From a virus, in IMG/VR virus record IMGVR_UViG_3300049596_000421, positions 1 through 60,161 of that record: a DNA stretch of 60,161 bases; one strand, given 5' to 3'. Position numbers and translations under genes: made by a program. Of this stretch, positions 35,354-43,488 are shown one piece after another. A model generated the notes under the pieces. It saw only the letters and a program-made list of their open reading frames with translations. It searched no databases and was not told the origin of the DNA. Within the stretch, counting starts at the first letter, position 1, and every line of letters starts with the position of its first letter.

Positions 35354-38300
35354 ATGGCAACAAACAGCAAAGTATTCGTATCTCCTGGGGTATATACTTC
35401 CGAAGTTGATTTAAGTTTCGTAGCACAGAGTGTGGGTGTAACCACATTAGGTATCGTAGGTGAGACACAAAAAGGTCCTGCTTTTGAACCAATCTTTATA
35501 CGTAACTTTGATGAATTTTCAACTTTTTTTGGAGGTACATCACCTGAAAAATTTATTAATACACAAATACCGAAGTATGAGGCTTCGTATATCGCAAAAT
35601 CTTATTTACAACAATCTAATCAGTTGTTTGTTACAAGAATTTTGGGATTGTCAGGATATGACGCGGGACCTTCTTGGTCTTTTAGAACAATAGCGAACGT
35701 AGATAAATCAACAGTCGATTTCGATTGTTCAGGTAGTACATATGATATACCAACGTGTTCAACAATTTGTACAGGCTATACTGAATATTTATTTACACTA
35801 CCTTTCACAGGATGTAATGACGATATAAGTTCAGTTGTATTTGGACCTATAGTTGGTGACCAATCTATTATAACTAACAAATTTAACGAAAGTTATCAAA
35901 ATTTTAATGGGACAACATCAACAATTGCATCTAATTTCCAACAACAAATTTTCAATGTTATTGTATCTTCAACAACTCTATCAACATCCGCAACATCATT
36001 ATATTGTTACGGAACAATATTAGGTAGTGATTATGACATATTATATTCAAGTGGTTTCAGTGGTGTTACTAATGTTTTTGGAGTAAATAACGTTGATTCA
36101 CATTTAGCTGATTACACAGCACCTGAAAATGACCCTTGGTATTACGCATTATTTGATAATAATAATGGTAGTTATTCGGGTAGTTCATATTCATCTATAA
36201 TTGGAACTCTTGTTCAAAGTTCATCATCATCAAATTGTGCGTCATTTACGTCATTTAATGTTAGTGGTGTAACAGGAAGTATAAACTACGATAATAATAC
36301 TATTAGTGTTGTTTTACCATATAACGCAACTTTTTCAGGAACAAATTTATCAACAGTTGTTGCAGGATTTGATGCTTGTTGTACGGGGGTAACGGTTAGT
36401 AGTGTTCCACAAGTAAGTGGTGTTACATCTAATAATTTTACAACACCAGTTAGTTATCTTTTAACACCAAATGATGGAATATCACAACCTGAGACTTGGA
36501 TAGTGTCAGTTACAATACAAAATCCTTGTAATCCAATTACATCAGGAAATACAGGTTCACAAAACACAGGAACAATTAAGACTTGTTATACAGGTAGTGT
36601 TGTAGGTAGTGTTTATGTTTATACAGGGACATCATACACTGATTTTGACGATTTAGTTATAGCAACTCTTCGTTCAAGAGGTATCGCAACATATGGTACA
36701 GATAGTGATGGTCCTGAGTATCAAGTTTCAGGATTAACTGATGTTACAATGAATTGTACCGGAGGATATTCAACTATTGGTAAAAACCCATATTCTGAAT
36801 TTGGATTAAACATAACTGATAAAGATAATAACACATTTTTCTTTGAAACATCATTTAGTGAGTCGGATTCTAAATACATATCTAAAGTGTTTGGTTCATC
36901 TAACTTTTCAAAACCAAGAACTACGGTTCCATTATTTGTTGAAGAAAGATTCCAAACATTATTAAACTATGGTTATAATAAAGGGTATATTAGAGGTATT
37001 AATTGTGATTTAATAGCGTTACCAAGAGCAAAAGGTAATAACCCATCAAGTATAGCGTTTTATTTAGAAAAATATCAAACACCTTCTTCTCCTTGGGTTG
37101 TTTCTGAAGTAAGAGGTAGTAAAGTATATAATTTATTTAGATTTACAACAATTTCTGATGGTGATGATGCAAATACCGAAGTTAAAATTTCTATCGCAAA
37201 TATGTCATTTGGTAATTTAACTTTTGATATTTTGGTTAGAGATTTTTACGATACAGATAATAATCCGGTAGTTATTGAGAAATTTACAAATTGTTCTATG
37301 AATCCTCAAGACAATTCGTTTATAGCACAAAAAATCGGAACAACTGATGGTGAATACGCATTAAACTCTAAATATATTATGGTTGAAATGAATGAGGACG
37401 CACCAATAGATGCGTTACCTTGTGGATTCCAAGGTTTTAATTTTAGAAGTTATGGAACATCCAAATCACCATTCCCAATATATAAAACTAATTATGATTA
37501 TCCTGGTGAAGTAGTGTTTGACCCTCCTTTTGGATTAAGTTCAGGAGGTAACTTGGTAACTCAAAGCCCTGGTGATAATGTTCGTAGAACTTATTTAGGG
37601 ATTTCAACAGGATACGGTGCGGGTTATGATTCAGATTTTTTCCAATATAAAGGAAAACAACTACCAGGAAATTTATGTAGAGACACTGAAGGTGCTAATT
37701 GGGCTTTCAGAACAAAAGGTTTCCATATGGATATTAACGCATCAACAATTGTTTACCCGGGAACATCTGTTCCGGAATTTTATGTTGGTTCAGCTCCGTT
37801 TACATCTGACCCTAGTAGTGAGGCAAGTCCTTATTACAGAATTTACTCACGTAAGTTCTCATTATTAGTTCAAGGTGGGTTTGACGGTTGGGATATTTAT
37901 AGAGAATCGAGAACTAATACCGACACATTTAAAGTGGGTAATAGAGGTTATTTAAACGGAGCTTGTTCGGATATTAAATATCCAACAGCTACAGGTTGGG
38001 GTTCATTTAAACAAATTACCGTTGGAAACAATAGTGTTGATTGGGGTAATACTGATTATTACGCTTATTTATTAGGACAACAAACATTTTCTAATCCTGA
38101 AGCAGTAAATATTAATTTATTTGTTACACCAGGTATTGATTATATAAATAACAGTAATCTAGTTGAAGATGCTATTGAAATGATTGAATTTAATAGAGCG
38201 GATTCGTTGTATATTTGTACAACACCTGATATTGATTTATTCACACCAACAGTTGATTTAGCAACTGATTTAATTTATCCACAAGAGTCTGTAAATGGAT

Positions 38301-38941
38301 TAGAAGATAGTGGTATTGACTCTAACTACACGGCAACTTACTACCCTTGGGTATTAACTAGAGATAGTGTTAATAATACACAAATCTACTTACCACCTAC
38401 GGCTGAGGTTACAAGAAACTTGGCGTTAACAGATAACATCGCATTCCCTTGGTTCGCGGCGGCAGGTTACACAAGAGGTATTGTAAACGCTATCAAAGCG
38501 AGAAAGAAACTTACTCAAGAAGATAGAGATACTCTTTACCAAGGACGTATCAATCCAATTGCTACTTTCTCTGATGTTGGAACGGTAATTTGGGGTAACA
38601 AAACTTTACAAGTTGCTCAATCTGCTCTTGATAGAATAAATGTTAGAAGATTATTACTTCAAGCTCGTAAATTGATTTCAGCGGTATCTGTAAGATTATT
38701 GTTTGAACAAAACGACCAAAAAGTAAGACAAGACTTCTTAGACGCGGTTAACCCTATCTTGGATGCTATCAGAAGAGACAGAGGTTTATATGATTTCCGA
38801 GTTACAGTATCGTCAGACGCTGCTGATTTAGACAGAAATCAAATGACAGGTAAGATTTATATCAAACCAACCAAATCGTTAGAATTTATAGACATTACGT
38901 TCTATATAACTCCAACCGGAGCTTCTTTCGAGAATATATAA
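35354..38941 (+). CDS. Contractile tail sheath protein, T4 gp18-like, with large insertion
   Basis: A 1195-residue sheath subunit, versus 659 in T4. The N-terminus (VFVSPGVYTSEVDLS, then GIVGETQKGPAFEPIFIRNF) and C-terminus (IWGNKTLQVAQSALDRINVR, LLEQND-like LLFEQNDQKVRQDFLDAVN, then GLYDFRVTVSSDAADLD) are classic sheath. Between about 115 and 440 lies a Ser/Thr/Cys-rich insertion. It includes an Ig-like segment at about 296-392 (SINYDNNTISVVLPYNATF ... YLLTPNDG ... WIVSVTIQ) of the DUF5018-like kind seen in Bacteroidota proteins. A central region (about 640-850) also exceeds the T4 domains. The insertion probably faces outward on the sheath lattice. An 11-bp inverted repeat follows the gene. 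Confidence 0.92.
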   Translation: MATNSKVFVSPGVYTSEVDLSFVAQSVGVTTLGIVGETQKGPAFEPIFIRNFDEFSTFFGGTSPEKFINTQIPKYEASYIAKSYLQQSNQLFVTRILGLSGYDAGPSWSFRTIANVDKSTVDFDCSGSTYDIPTCSTICTGYTEYLFTLPFTGCNDDISSVVFGPIVGDQSIITNKFNESYQNFNGTTSTIASNFQQQIFNVIVSSTTLSTSATSLYCYGTILGSDYDILYSSGFSGVTNVFGVNNVDSHLADYTAPENDPWYYALFDNNNGSYSGSSYSSIIGTLVQSSSSSNCASFTSFNVSGVTGSINYDNNTISVVLPYNATFSGTNLSTVVAGFDACCTGVTVSSVPQVSGVTSNNFTTPVSYLLTPNDGISQPETWIVSVTIQNPCNPITSGNTGSQNTGTIKTCYTGSVVGSVYVYTGTSYTDFDDLVIATLRSRGIATYGTDSDGPEYQVSGLTDVTMNCTGGYSTIGKNPYSEFGLNITDKDNNTFFFETSFSESDSKYISKVFGSSNFSKPRTTVPLFVEERFQTLLNYGYNKGYIRGINCDLIALPRAKGNNPSSIAFYLEKYQTPSSPWVVSEVRGSKVYNLFRFTTISDGDDANTEVKISIANMSFGNLTFDILVRDFYDTDNNPVVIEKFTNCSMNPQDNSFIAQKIGTTDGEYALNSKYIMVEMNEDAPIDALPCGFQGFNFRSYGTSKSPFPIYKTNYDYPGEVVFDPPFGLSSGGNLVTQSPGDNVRRTYLGISTGYGAGYDSDFFQYKGKQLPGNLCRDTEGANWAFRTKGFHMDINASTIVYPGTSVPEFYVGSAPFTSDPSSEASPYYRIYSRKFSLLVQGGFDGWDIYRESRTNTDTFKVGNRGYLNGACSDIKYPTATGWGSFKQITVGNNSVDWGNTDYYAYLLGQQTFSNPEAVNINLFVTPGIDYINNSNLVEDAIEMIEFNRADSLYICTTPDIDLFTPTVDLATDLIYPQESVNGLEDSGIDSNYTATYYPWVLTRDSVNNTQIYLPPTAEVTRNLALTDNIAFPWFAAAGYTRGIVNAIKARKKLTQEDRDTLYQGRINPIATFSDVGTVIWGNKTLQVAQSALDRINVRRLLLQARKLISAVSVRLLFEQNDQKVRQDFLDAVNPILDAIRRDRGLYDFRVTVSSDAADLDRNQMTGKIYIKPTKSLEFIDITFYITPTGASFENI

Positions 38942-39992: not shown

Positions 39993-40481
39993 ATGGCTGA
40001 TTTATTAATGAAAATGCCCATACCGTATGAACCAAAAAGACAAAATAGGTTTATTGTACGATTCCCTTCTACATTAGGGATTAACGAATGGTTTGTAGAG
40101 TCGGCTGCTAGACCACATATCACTATTAAAGACGTTGAAATACCCTTTTTAAATACTTCAACATATGTTGCGGGTAGATTTACTTGGGGGACAATTAATG
40201 TTAAATTTAGAGACCCAATTGGACCTTCTGCGTCACAAGCTCTTATGGAGTGGGTTCGTTTATGTGCTGAGTCAGTTACAGGTCGTATGGGGTATGCTGC
40301 GGGATATAAGAAAAACATTGACCTTGAGATGTTAGACCCAACAGGGGTTGTTGTCGAAAAATGGATATTAGAAGGAACTTTTTTAAGTGATGTTAACTTT
40401 GATACTTTAGCTTATAGTTCAGACGCGTTGGCAACAATTTCAGCAACACTTCGTATGGATAGATGTGTATTAGTTTACTAA
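39993..40481 (+). CDS. Tail tube protein, T4 gp19-like
   Basis: A 162-residue protein, the same size as T4 gp19 (163). Conserved features: PYEPKRQNRFIVRFP near the N-terminus, WFVESAARPHITIKDVEIPF, YVAGRFTWGTINVKFRDPIG and LDPTGVVVEKWILEGTFLSD, ending in SATLRMDRCVLVY. This fits the gp19/Hcp-like tube fold that polymerises under the sheath. It follows the sheath and HAD genes behind a TATTTATA element and is 1 nt from a small gene. High confidence. Confidence 0.93.
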   Translation: MADLLMKMPIPYEPKRQNRFIVRFPSTLGINEWFVESAARPHITIKDVEIPFLNTSTYVAGRFTWGTINVKFRDPIGPSASQALMEWVRLCAESVTGRMGYAAGYKKNIDLEMLDPTGVVVEKWILEGTFLSDVNFDTLAYSSDALATISATLRMDRCVLVY

Positions 40482-40482
40482 A

Positions 40483-40689
40483 ATGATTAGAGAATTAACA
40501 ATAGAAAAAATTCGTAATTCTCCAACATTAAGTGATGAAAAATGGGTTTCCGTTAATCTACCAGATGTATATTCTAAAATACTTAAATTAACAAAACATA
40601 TGAATAGTGATTGTGAGTTTATGGTTCGATTAGAATTTATTAATAAATTACTTTCTGAAAAAAAAATATGTTTATTACATTTTAAATAA
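40483..40689 (+). CDS. Small hypothetical protein (68 aa)
   Basis: A 68-residue, mostly helical and charged protein (MIRELTIEKIRNSPTLSDE start). No known family is recognised. It starts 1 nt after the tube gene's stop and ends at a strong terminator, so it is co-transcribed with the tube gene. It may be a tail assembly factor, by position only. Confidence 0.5.
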   Translation: MIRELTIEKIRNSPTLSDEKWVSVNLPDVYSKILKLTKHMNSDCEFMVRLEFINKLLSEKKICLLHFK

Positions 40690-40713
40690 AACCCACATTA
40701 CGTGGGTTTTTTT
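40688..40713 (+). terminator. Rho-independent terminator after tail tube unit
   Basis: AAACCCAC (40689-40696) pairs with GTGGGTTT (40702-40709) around ATTAC, followed by a T-run. It separates the tube unit from the chaperone unit, which begins behind its own TATTTATA element. Confidence 0.9.
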
Positions 40714-40772: not shown

Positions 40773-41528
40773 ATGGAACAAAATTTAATAGATGCTGCAA
40801 CACAAAACTTCAGTTTACCACACGATGTGGTTCAATTACCAACGGGTGGTATTTTTTATAAATCAAAAAAGAAATCGGTTAAAATTGGTTATTTAACAGC
40901 AAATGACGAAAATTATTTAATTGGAGCTAGTCGTAGTAGTGAAAATATTATATTAAAATTATTACGAAATAAAATGTATGAACACGATTTACGTCCTGAA
41001 GAACTTTTAGATGGGGATGTTGAGGCGATTTTAATATTTTTAAGAAATACGTCATTTGGTTCTGATTATAGTATTAACTTAATTGACCCTGGTACAGATA
41101 AACCATTTGTTGGTACTGTTGTATTAGATGAATTAAATATTAAAAAAACTGAATCTAAACCTGATGAAGATGGTACATTTACAACTAAATTACCAAAAAC
41201 AGGAATTACTGTAAAATTAAGACCAACAACCTTCTATGATACTATTGAATTAGATAAACAGGAAGCACAATACCCTATTGGTAGACAAGCACCAAAAATT
41301 ACTTGGAAATTATTAAAACATATTGTTGAGATTGACGGTGATTCAGACAGGTCAAAAATTAGTTTATTTGTCGATTCAATGCCAATTATGGATTCTAAGT
41401 ACATAAGAAGTTTTTTAAGAGAAAATGAACCGTCATTGGACTTAAAAAGAAGTGTAATCGCCCCTTCAGGAGAATTGGTATCTTTCGAGATAACCTTTGG
41501 GGTGGACTTTTTTCGACCTTTCTTCTAA
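40773..41528 (+). CDS. Tail assembly chaperone / gp26-like baseplate hub protein, zero-frame product
   Basis: A 251-residue protein starting with helical residues, then VVQLPTGGIFYKSKKKSVKIGYLTA, a gp26-like feature. It continues with LRNKMYEHDLRPEELLDGDVEAILIFLR and FTTKLPKTGITVKLRPTTF. The end SFEITFGVDFFRPFF resembles the F-F-W/R-P endings of T4-like gp26 proteins. It lies directly before the tape measure gene, the canonical place of tail assembly chaperones. The +1 frame downstream continues in a helical segment typical of the second half of such chaperones, and a shift-prone TTT-CGA sits at 41511-41516, so a longer fused product is likely. Confidence 0.72.
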   Translation: MEQNLIDAATQNFSLPHDVVQLPTGGIFYKSKKKSVKIGYLTANDENYLIGASRSSENIILKLLRNKMYEHDLRPEELLDGDVEAILIFLRNTSFGSDYSINLIDPGTDKPFVGTVVLDELNIKKTESKPDEDGTFTTKLPKTGITVKLRPTTFYDTIELDKQEAQYPIGRQAPKITWKLLKHIVEIDGDSDRSKISLFVDSMPIMDSKYIRSFLRENEPSLDLKRSVIAPSGELVSFEITFGVDFFRPFF

Positions 41529-41667
41529 TCATAAACAATTATTAATTGAGGAGTATCTATATTTGGCTCAATCAATACACGTATCATATTCGGATTTTCA
41601 TTCAATGCCGACATATGTTAGAAAATACTTAATAAATCGAGTAATCGAGAATAACACACCAAACTAG
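41515..41667 (+). CDS. +1-frame extension of the tail assembly chaperone (programmed frameshift product)
   Basis: The frame shifted +1 from the chaperone is open from 41494 to the TAG at 41665-41667 and encodes LLIEEYLYLAQSIHVSYSDF then HSMPTYVRKYLINRVIEN. The Y-S-x-x-x-x-M-P-x-x-x-R-x-x-L-I pattern is that of gp26/gp51-type and other phage tail chaperone C-termini. It has no usable start: the only ATG (41605) is internal to the conserved segment. A +1 slip on TTT at 41511-41513 (to TTC at 41512-41514), before the rare CGA codon, would fuse it to 247 zero-frame residues, giving 297 residues. The TTT TTT CGA C site resembles the UCC UUU CGU C site of influenza PA-X. Alternative: a separate, re-initiated small gene. 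Confidence 0.6.
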   Translation, partial: DLSSNHKQLLIEEYLYLAQSIHVSYSDFHSMPTYVRKYLINRVIENNTPN

Positions 41668-41691
41668 TGATTTAAAAACTATGTTTGGTGT
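41656..41691 (+). promoter_or_regulatory. Inverted repeat at the end of the frameshift product
   Basis: ACACCAAAC (41656-41664) pairs with GTTTGGTGT (41683-41691), with an inner 4-bp stem in the 18-nt loop. It spans the stop codon of the +1 frame and lies just before the tape measure promoter element. It could be a weak terminator or mRNA end. Confidence 0.4.
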
Positions 41692-41715: not shown

Positions 41716-43488
41716 ATGGCAGGAGAAGGAACACCGGTAACACCAGCACCCGGAGACGCGACAAGAGGATTAGGAGAAGCAATTGGTTCTAATTTTAACC
41801 CTGAGGCGATTGCTAAAGTAGTATTGACACTTGATAAGGCGTCAAGCGAAATGCTTAAATCGTTTGGTAGAGGTCAAGAGATGGCGGACATATTACGTAT
41901 TAGTATGTCAAATTCTGTTACTGAAGTTAGAAAATTAGGTGGTGATATTGCCGATGTTCTTGCAACCCAAAAAGCCGCTTCTGAGGCGTTAGGGAGAAAT
42001 GTGATATTATCTGAAAAAACAACTAAAGATTTATACGCCACGATGAAAGTAACTGGTGTTGAAGTTGGTAAAATTGTTACAGGTATGGCGGATGTTGGTA
42101 TTTCGTCAGTTAGAGCGACTAACGAAATGTTAAAAGTTGTTAATATTGCAAGAGAATCGGGGGCAAATGCTCAGGCTGTTTCGGCTAAGGTTATTGATAA
42201 TATGAACGCACTTAACAAATATAATTTTGCTGGTGGTGTTGAAGGGTTGGCTAAAATGGCGGCTCAAGCGACATCATTAAGAATTGATATGTCTCAAACA
42301 TTAGGGTTTGCTGAAAAAGTGTTTAATCCTGAAGGGGCGATTGAGGTTGCCGCTGCGATGCAGAGATTAGGTGTGTCTCAAAGTTCTTTATTAGACCCAT
42401 TAAAATTAATGGATTTATCTCAAAATGACCCCGCTGAATTACAAAATCAAATTGCTCAAATGAGTAAACAATTTGTTCAGTTAGGTAAAGATGGTAATTT
42501 TGAAATTATGCCGGGAGCAAAAAGACAATTGAGAGAAATTTCAACCGCTATGGGTATTCCTTACGACCAACTTACCAAAATGGCGTTAGGTGGTGCGGAT
42601 TTAGATAAGAAGTTAAAAGAAATTACATTCCCAAGTGCAACTGAAGACCAAAAGAAAATGATTGCCAATATGGCTGAAATGGGTGAAGGTGGAACTTATG
42701 AAATCAAAACAGCTGCGGGAGACACAAAAAAAGTTAGTGATTTAACACCTGAAGAAATAAAGGCTCTCGAAAAAATGGCTAACGCCAAACCGGAGTCAAT
42801 GGAAGATTTGGCAAAACAACAATTATCTGCAACTCAATCTATTGCCGCGGCAATTAATAGTTTAGGGGATAGAACAGGTTTAGGTTTGGCTAGTAGTAAA
42901 ACTGCGGGGGGAATATTAAAAGGAACAAGGGCTGTTGCTACGGCAGGTTCTGAAATAATGGGTGAGGGATTATCGGCAAAAAATATTGGAAAAGGGATTG
43001 ATAAAGCGGCGGACACATTAACCGGAGCTGTTGCAGAATATGCCAATACAGGAAAAATATCCGCTAATTTAGGAACAATTATGAGTGATTTTGGTAGTTT
43101 TATTAGTAAAGAAATGAAAGAATCATTTTCAAATGTTAAAGCTCAAGCAGATAAACTAGATAAAGAATTTCCATTATTTGGTGATATTGCTAGAGCGGCA
43201 CAAGTTGCGACTGGAACTGCTCTTCCTAGAAATGCAACATCAAATATACCAACAGGTGGTGTGGGAACAAATAGTATGAATGGTACACAATCATCGACTC
43301 AGAAATCAACGGTTGATGTTAACGTAAATCACACAATTAATATTACAGCACCTGCCGGTATAGATACAAAAACACTTCAGAACGCATTAAACGAACCTGA
43401 TGTTAAACAACAAATAGTTAAAATGTATCAAGATACGGTGTCAGATACTATTGGTAGACCTATCCCTAGTAAAAATGAACCTCGTTAA
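41716..43488 (+). CDS. Tape measure protein (T4 gp29-like role)
   Basis: A 590-residue, Ala/Lys/Met-rich, largely helical protein without obvious globular enzyme motifs. It is located directly after the frameshifting chaperone, the canonical tape measure position. The length equals T4 gp29 (590). The N-terminal half consists of long amphipathic helices (VVLTLDKASSEMLKSFGRG). A small hydrophobic stretch (GTRAVATAGSEIMG region) and the C-terminal VDVNVNHTINITAPAGID then LQNALNEPDVKQQIVKMYQD resemble tape measure C-termini. It sets tail length and is ejected into the host. It starts 13 nt after TATTTATA. Family call rests on context plus composition. Confidence 0.75.
   Translation: MAGEGTPVTPAPGDATRGLGEAIGSNFNPEAIAKVVLTLDKASSEMLKSFGRGQEMADILRISMSNSVTEVRKLGGDIADVLATQKAASEALGRNVILSEKTTKDLYATMKVTGVEVGKIVTGMADVGISSVRATNEMLKVVNIARESGANAQAVSAKVIDNMNALNKYNFAGGVEGLAKMAAQATSLRIDMSQTLGFAEKVFNPEGAIEVAAAMQRLGVSQSSLLDPLKLMDLSQNDPAELQNQIAQMSKQFVQLGKDGNFEIMPGAKRQLREISTAMGIPYDQLTKMALGGADLDKKLKEITFPSATEDQKKMIANMAEMGEGGTYEIKTAAGDTKKVSDLTPEEIKALEKMANAKPESMEDLAKQQLSATQSIAAAINSLGDRTGLGLASSKTAGGILKGTRAVATAGSEIMGEGLSAKNIGKGIDKAADTLTGAVAEYANTGKISANLGTIMSDFGSFISKEMKESFSNVKAQADKLDKEFPLFGDIARAAQVATGTALPRNATSNIPTGGVGTNSMNGTQSSTQKSTVDVNVNHTINITAPAGIDTKTLQNALNEPDVKQQIVKMYQDTVSDTIGRPIPSKNEPR

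Follow-up and report, generated by a model that had tools for sequence, protein, structure and literature searches.

A probable +1 ribosomal frameshift in a tail assembly chaperone gene of the T4 gp26/gp51 family

The 60,161 nucleotides of IMG/VR virus record IMGVR_UViG_3300049596_000421 (positions 1 to 60,161, here called the window, meaning that whole stretch) carry a gene for a tail assembly chaperone (TAC) of the family that includes gp26 and gp51 of phage T4. This locus very probably makes its chaperone as two proteins through a +1 ribosomal frameshift near the end of the gene. Most ribosomes would terminate at 41528, delivering a short form of 251 amino acids (TAC-N, G-like). In a minority, the P-site tRNA-Phe, paired with UUU (41508-41513) and still carrying the peptide, would move +1 onto UUC before the next codon is decoded. 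These ribosomes would then read the +1 frame to 41667, producing a fusion of about 297 amino acids (TAC-NC, GT-like). The overlap of the two frames, the missing start, the conserved shift site, the coding tail, and the homology between tails are all observed by comparison with relatives; from them we infer the slip and its efficiency.

The assignment of the 40773-41528 product to the family is made by a PF12322 profile match of 37.8 bits (curated cut-off 24.5, E=2.1e-9) and by a PHROG 150 match (E=1e-12). A sequence search of the PDB gave nothing useful. An earlier note on this DNA had proposed the +1 shift, and its coordinates were right: the gene ends at 41528, the +1 frame is open from 41494 to 41667, and the two share 35 nucleotides. 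The 3' end of the 0-frame gene reads GGG GTG GAC TTT TTT CGA CCT TTC TTC TAA, with TTT TTT CGA at 41508-41516. Near the start of the +1 open reading frame (ORF) there is no ATG, the sole candidate being a TTG at 41497 that lies within the 0-frame codons TTT GGG (Phe-Gly). The TTG is kept in the close clade because it is part of these codons. Thus, the earlier statement that the +1 ORF lacks its own start was correct in substance.

Relatives were collected by scanning IMG/VR with the window protein (80 loci) and with two remote relatives, those of Flavobacterium phage immuto and Microcystis phage Mel-JY01 (80 loci each). Pooled, the scans gave 156 distinct junctions: 34 in clade W (the clade of the window), 59 in clade I, and 63 in clade M. 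At every one of these 156, reading in +1 meets no stop codon around the end of the 0-frame gene and can continue for 136-325 nucleotides beyond it, while in -1 a stop codon appears after a median of 17-38 nucleotides. As a control, 220 other gene ends from the same loci were scored for a +1 frame open at least 14 nucleotides before the stop and at least 130 past it. Only 4 of the 220 had one, against 156 of 156 junctions. For a few loci (L159 is the observed case) the stop was located by reading on from where the match ended and is therefore placed one stop too far, which leaves the result unaffected. The same +1 relation is found in Bacillus phage SP-15, in Streptococcus phage GXN1, and in uncultured LR756508 together with ten of its IMG/VR kin, while relative L006 reads to the same 297-amino-acid product. 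In the named isolates the tail is annotated as a separate hypothetical protein or is not annotated.

Beyond the 0-frame stop, the +1 frame varies mostly at third codon positions in all three clades. The median ratio of nonsynonymous to synonymous change (dN/dS) in the tail is 0.21 (W), 0.33 (I), and 0.37 (M), and the gene bodies have similar values. The +1 tail is therefore under purifying selection. The tails are also homologous between clades, as single profile comparisons indicate: the window tail matches the I/M tail profile at E=5.8e-6, and the W profile matches it at E=7.7e-11. Both alignments begin exactly at the Phe-Phe of the shift site.

Indel errors in sequencing, or the decay of a gene split by an indel, can of course produce overlaps of this kind. 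Here, however, the same frame relation recurs in 156 distinct junctions and in isolates from four hosts, and purifying selection operates in both frames. The probability that error or decay explains the overlap is practically negligible.

The site itself is conserved in a way that amino acid sequence alone does not demand. Where the first slip codon encodes Phe, it is TTT in 34 of 34 clade-W sequences, 58 of 58 in clade I, and 60 of 60 in clade M. Both in clade I and in clade M, 100% of the codons in the slip Phe columns are TTT, while no background conserved Phe column is all TTT; synonymous constraint sets in sharply at the first TTT. Clade W has TTT TTT CGN CCT in 33 cases and TTT TTT CTC CCT in one. 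Clade I has TTT CTT, TTT TTT, or TTT CTA, followed by TGG (in one case TAC), and clade M has TTT TTT (60) or CTT TTT (3), followed by TGG or TAC. GXN1 and most of the LR756508 kin have TTC TTT and then T or C. In every variant, one member of a pair of neighbouring codons is still a UUU or CUU able to re-pair +1 onto UUY. Slipping at the second codon is excluded in the CTA variants, and slipping at the first is excluded in the TTC TTT variants.

The earlier note had a rare CGA codon waiting while tRNA-Phe slips. A need for this codon did not survive comparison. Among 34 distinct clade-W relatives the A-site codon is CGC in 13, CGA in 11, CGT in 6, CGG in 3, and CTC in 1, so the third base is free. 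Across lineages the 0-frame A-site codons are CGN, UGG, CUN, or UUU, and none is a stop codon. In clade W, CGN is used in 33 of 33 sequences that keep Arg here, although other conserved Arg columns are mostly AGA. This, in turn, means that in clade W the base after UUU must be C. The predicted requirement of the site is thus UUU followed by a codon that begins with C or U, CGA itself being dispensable.

The same note had likened the site to that of influenza PA-X (UCC_UUU_CGU), a +1 site to which a passage in PMC5009743 also refers. The likeness holds in part. UUU_CGN is common to both, with a P-site tRNA-Phe slipping onto UUC before an Arg CGN codon. The UCC of PA-X is absent from the window and its relatives, where UUU precedes UUU; further, the A-site codon of the other clades is UGG or CUN, and the window clade has an upstream element resembling a Shine-Dalgarno (SD) sequence.

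The variation of the site also bears on two other ways to reach the same frame. Phage Mu is a known case of -2 frameshifting, and a -2 shift here would arrive at the same +1 frame, with re-pairing of tRNA-Phe by -2 possible at TTT TTT TGG sites. It is exceedingly unlikely, given that TTT CTA TGG, TTT CTT TGG, and TTC TTT TGG lack good -2 re-pairing but all permit UUU to move +1 onto UUY. The two shifts predict different residues at the junction, GVDFFDLSS for +1 and GVDFFFDLSS for -2; the predicted tryptic junction peptide of the window fusion is SVIAPSGELVSFEITFGVDFFDLSSNHK. Alternatively, RNA polymerase might slip on the T run to make messages one base short, and runs of T6-T7 are indeed present in W and in clade M. 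In clade I, however, 28 junctions read TTT CTT TGG and three read TTT CTA TGG, with no T run longer than 3, which leaves transcriptional slippage only a minute probability.

The bacterial +1 frameshift of prfB has an SD-like element upstream of CUU_UGA_C. The window likewise has a G-rich SD-like element just 5' of its site, with a +1 slip onto UUY. The window differs from prfB in having no stop codon in the A site, UUU rather than CUU, and a spacing longer by at least 2 bases; no autoregulation is implied. GGGG occurs in 34 of 34 clade-W sequences, at -9 from the first TTT. Gly is encoded by GGG in 10% of cases in gene bodies, against 100% (W), 66% (I), and 58% (M) within 15 nucleotides upstream of the site. 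The predicted energy of pairing with the anti-SD sequence in W is -8.9 kcal/mol, against -5.7 for synonymous recodings, with only a small excess in I and M; the null used here ignores relatedness, so these values count as support, not proof. No +1-frame start codon stands at a useful distance 3' of the element in the window, and therefore the element does not serve initiation of the tail. The upstream GGGG is a better candidate stimulator than the rare CGA, and in the window clade it would probably aid the slip.

Several observations weigh against this account. The SD-like element is strong in the window clade only, being weaker and not universal in I and M. A search for downstream RNA structure found none. 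Either codon of the pair may be the one that slips, and neither position suits every lineage. The likeness of the short form to a known chaperone fold is weak: in an AlphaFold2 model of the short form only (predicted local distance difference test score 85), the top fold match in the PDB is the HK97 tail assembly chaperone 2OB9 (gp13), with probability 0.60 and E=0.72, and the remaining matches listed have probabilities of 0.09 or less. Last, the conserved TTG within the overlap could in principle initiate the tail ORF.

This last point leads to the view that the tail is a separate small protein, initiated at TTG 41497 or by reinitiation after the stop. The TTG is in frame at this place in 33 of 34 clade-W sequences, and three relatives (L344, L350, and Pseudomonas phage Cygsa01) have a tail ATG of their own at or just after the stop. 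Against this, the TTG is a by-product of the 0-frame TTT GGG, and other clades do not conserve it; no ATG, GTG, or TTG occurs up to +24 in 21 of the 63 junctions of clade M and in 8 of the 59 of clade I. Further, homology between tails starts at the Phe-Phe of the shift site, and separate initiation leaves the invariant TTT and the choice of CGN unexplained. A separate protein is thus very unlikely, and a programmed +1 frameshift in the chaperone gene, as first proposed, is by far the best explanation of the overlap, the missing start, the TTT-C site, and the conserved coding tail.

Relatives in which the two parts are clearly separate genes with good starts had been named as evidence that would speak against a frameshift. 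Such relatives exist, but two of the three sit inside the +1 group at places where the slip site has been lost. In L344 and L350 (near locus position 1400), the TTT-Y site is gone, and a tail ATG lies 5-8 nucleotides after the start of the stop codon, with an extra N-terminal stretch. Read from their sequences, these are natural losses of the frameshift. A tail that acquires its own ATG where the slip site is lost, within a group that otherwise keeps the site, counts for frameshifting in the others. In Cygsa01 (L252, 2806-2982), the stop codon of the chaperone gene shares bases with the start codon of the tail (TAATG), an arrangement that points to coupled translation rather than frameshifting.

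The wider family has found still other solutions. At cyanophage-like loci (L250, L255-L334), 74 of 75 gp26 junctions carry an invariant T_TTT_TTC, their tail lying in frame -1, and Vibrio phage Bakedbeans is like them. The small cyanophage ORF annotated as "gp51 baseplate hub assembly catalyst" seems, from its sequence, to be the chaperone tail. The called start of this small ORF is often too far downstream. T4 gp26 and T4 gp51 both belong to PF12322. The cyanophage tail matches both the C-terminal tail of T4 gp51 (E=2.3e-5) and the tails of the I and M +1 clades (E=4.5e-5). The T4 gp51 tail compared directly with the I/M tail profile is not significant (E=0.16), so that this link runs only through the cyanophage tails, and cyanophage tails compared with W tails gave no match. 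Synechococcus phage S-SCSM1 (L249, 3160-3374) has the sole cyanophage-type junction with a +1 tail, carrying extra bases after TTT TTC GCT TAG relative to its kin; these reflect a sequencing error, or else the tail has truly switched to an ATG of its own.

In a tree of the 0-frame proteins, which has long branches and an unknown root, a branch with support 100/100 separates all +1 rows, with L344 and L350 nested among them, from the -1, duplicated, and coupled forms. It is likely that one chaperone family changed the direction of its frameshift. One large group, in marine, freshwater, Bacillus, and Streptococcus phages, would shift +1 at UUU-Y while a sense codon occupies the A site, with SD-like help in places. 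Its sister group, at an equivalent Phe-Phe poly-U site, would shift -1 (cyanophages), use a separate ORF, or duplicate the gene (T4).

Set beside known systems, the window locus combines familiar parts. T4 gp26 and gp51 are of the same family, but T4 makes its short and long forms from two genes, where the window would use one gene with a +1 shift. The cyanophage gp26 and small "gp51" ORF (for example in S-RIM8) likewise pair a short form with an out-of-frame tail at a poly-U encoding Phe-Phe; the direction there is -1, not +1. Lambda gpG/gpGT also lies before the tape measure gene and has a major short and a minor long form, although the lambda type is usually -1. By analogy with gpG/gpGT, the tail of the long form would join the complex of tape measure and chaperone to tail tube subunits. 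To our knowledge, few bacterial +1 sites have a sense codon in the A site.

The statement of the earlier note that most chaperone frameshifts are -1 agrees with the literature, where +1 is a known minority. Passages of PMC5009743 describe the tail-gene frameshift as conserved among phages with T4 as the exception (Xu 2004, Atkins 2016), and mention HSTV-2 as a +1 case. PMC10885494 gives 350 forward candidate sites in SEA-PHAGES training data and notes that some T4-like phages carry short and long gene copies; a passage of PMC12846349 reports poly-T -1 sites in others. Both credit the identification of T4-like chaperone genes to Vladimirov, Gautam and Davidson 2022. A literature search that did not extend to the text of Vladimirov 2022 found no report of a +1 shift in the T4 gp26/gp51 family. 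As far as found, then, the +1 group is undescribed; the T4 chaperone assignment itself is already published.

Within the wider T4-like family, a very large share of phages would thus rely on a +1 frameshift that annotation has missed, the tail being listed as a very small hypothetical protein or left out. The site offers hundreds of natural variants, and together with a -1 sister group at nearly identical sequence they make the direction of shifting directly testable. If the account is true, nature has provided a series from which to learn what sets that direction in bacteria.

The features discussed are collected in Table 1. The order of tail tube, chaperone, and presumed tape measure gene is that expected for a G/GT gene. 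Family searches with the product of the presumed tape measure gene gave no convincing match; in Flavobacterium phage immuto and in Bacillus phage SP-15, the gene at the same position is annotated as the tape measure.

Table 1. Coordinates of the frameshift locus and its neighbours in the window
Feature	Position	Strand	Basis or remark
Tail tube gene (context)	39993..40481	+	PHROG 4542 tail tube, E=7.2e-27
Short form, tail assembly chaperone (0-frame gene, 251 amino acids, T4 gp26/gp51 family)	40773..41528	+	PF12322, PHROG 150
+1-frame ORF, C-terminal tail of predicted long form, no ATG start	41494..41667	+	conservation, dN/dS, tail profile match
GGGGTGG, SD-like element just 5' of shift site	41499..41505	+	proposed stimulator
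Putative shift site TTT TTT C, peptidyl-tRNA-Phe UUU to UUC (or UUU to UUU at first codon)	41508..41514	+	invariant TTT
0-frame A-site codon CGA	41514..41516	+	CGN in relatives, first base C fixed, third free
Stretch predicted to be read in +1 after the shift, 50 amino acids (DLSSNHK...NNTPN), fusion about 297 amino acids	41515..41667	+	
0-frame stop TAA, end of short form	41526..41528	+	
Presumed tape measure gene (context)	41716..43488	+	position only

Other features of the region were seen in passing. A terminator-like hairpin with a T run lies directly 5' of the chaperone gene (40688-40710), and an inverted repeat, ACACCAAAC...GTTTGGTGT, without a clear T run, lies beside the stop of the tail ORF (41655-41691). 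No tRNA genes were found in the window. A tail sheath protein of 1195 amino acids is encoded at 35354-38941; its matches to sheath families lie mainly over the C-terminal third, and therefore a large insertion or extra domains precede that part.
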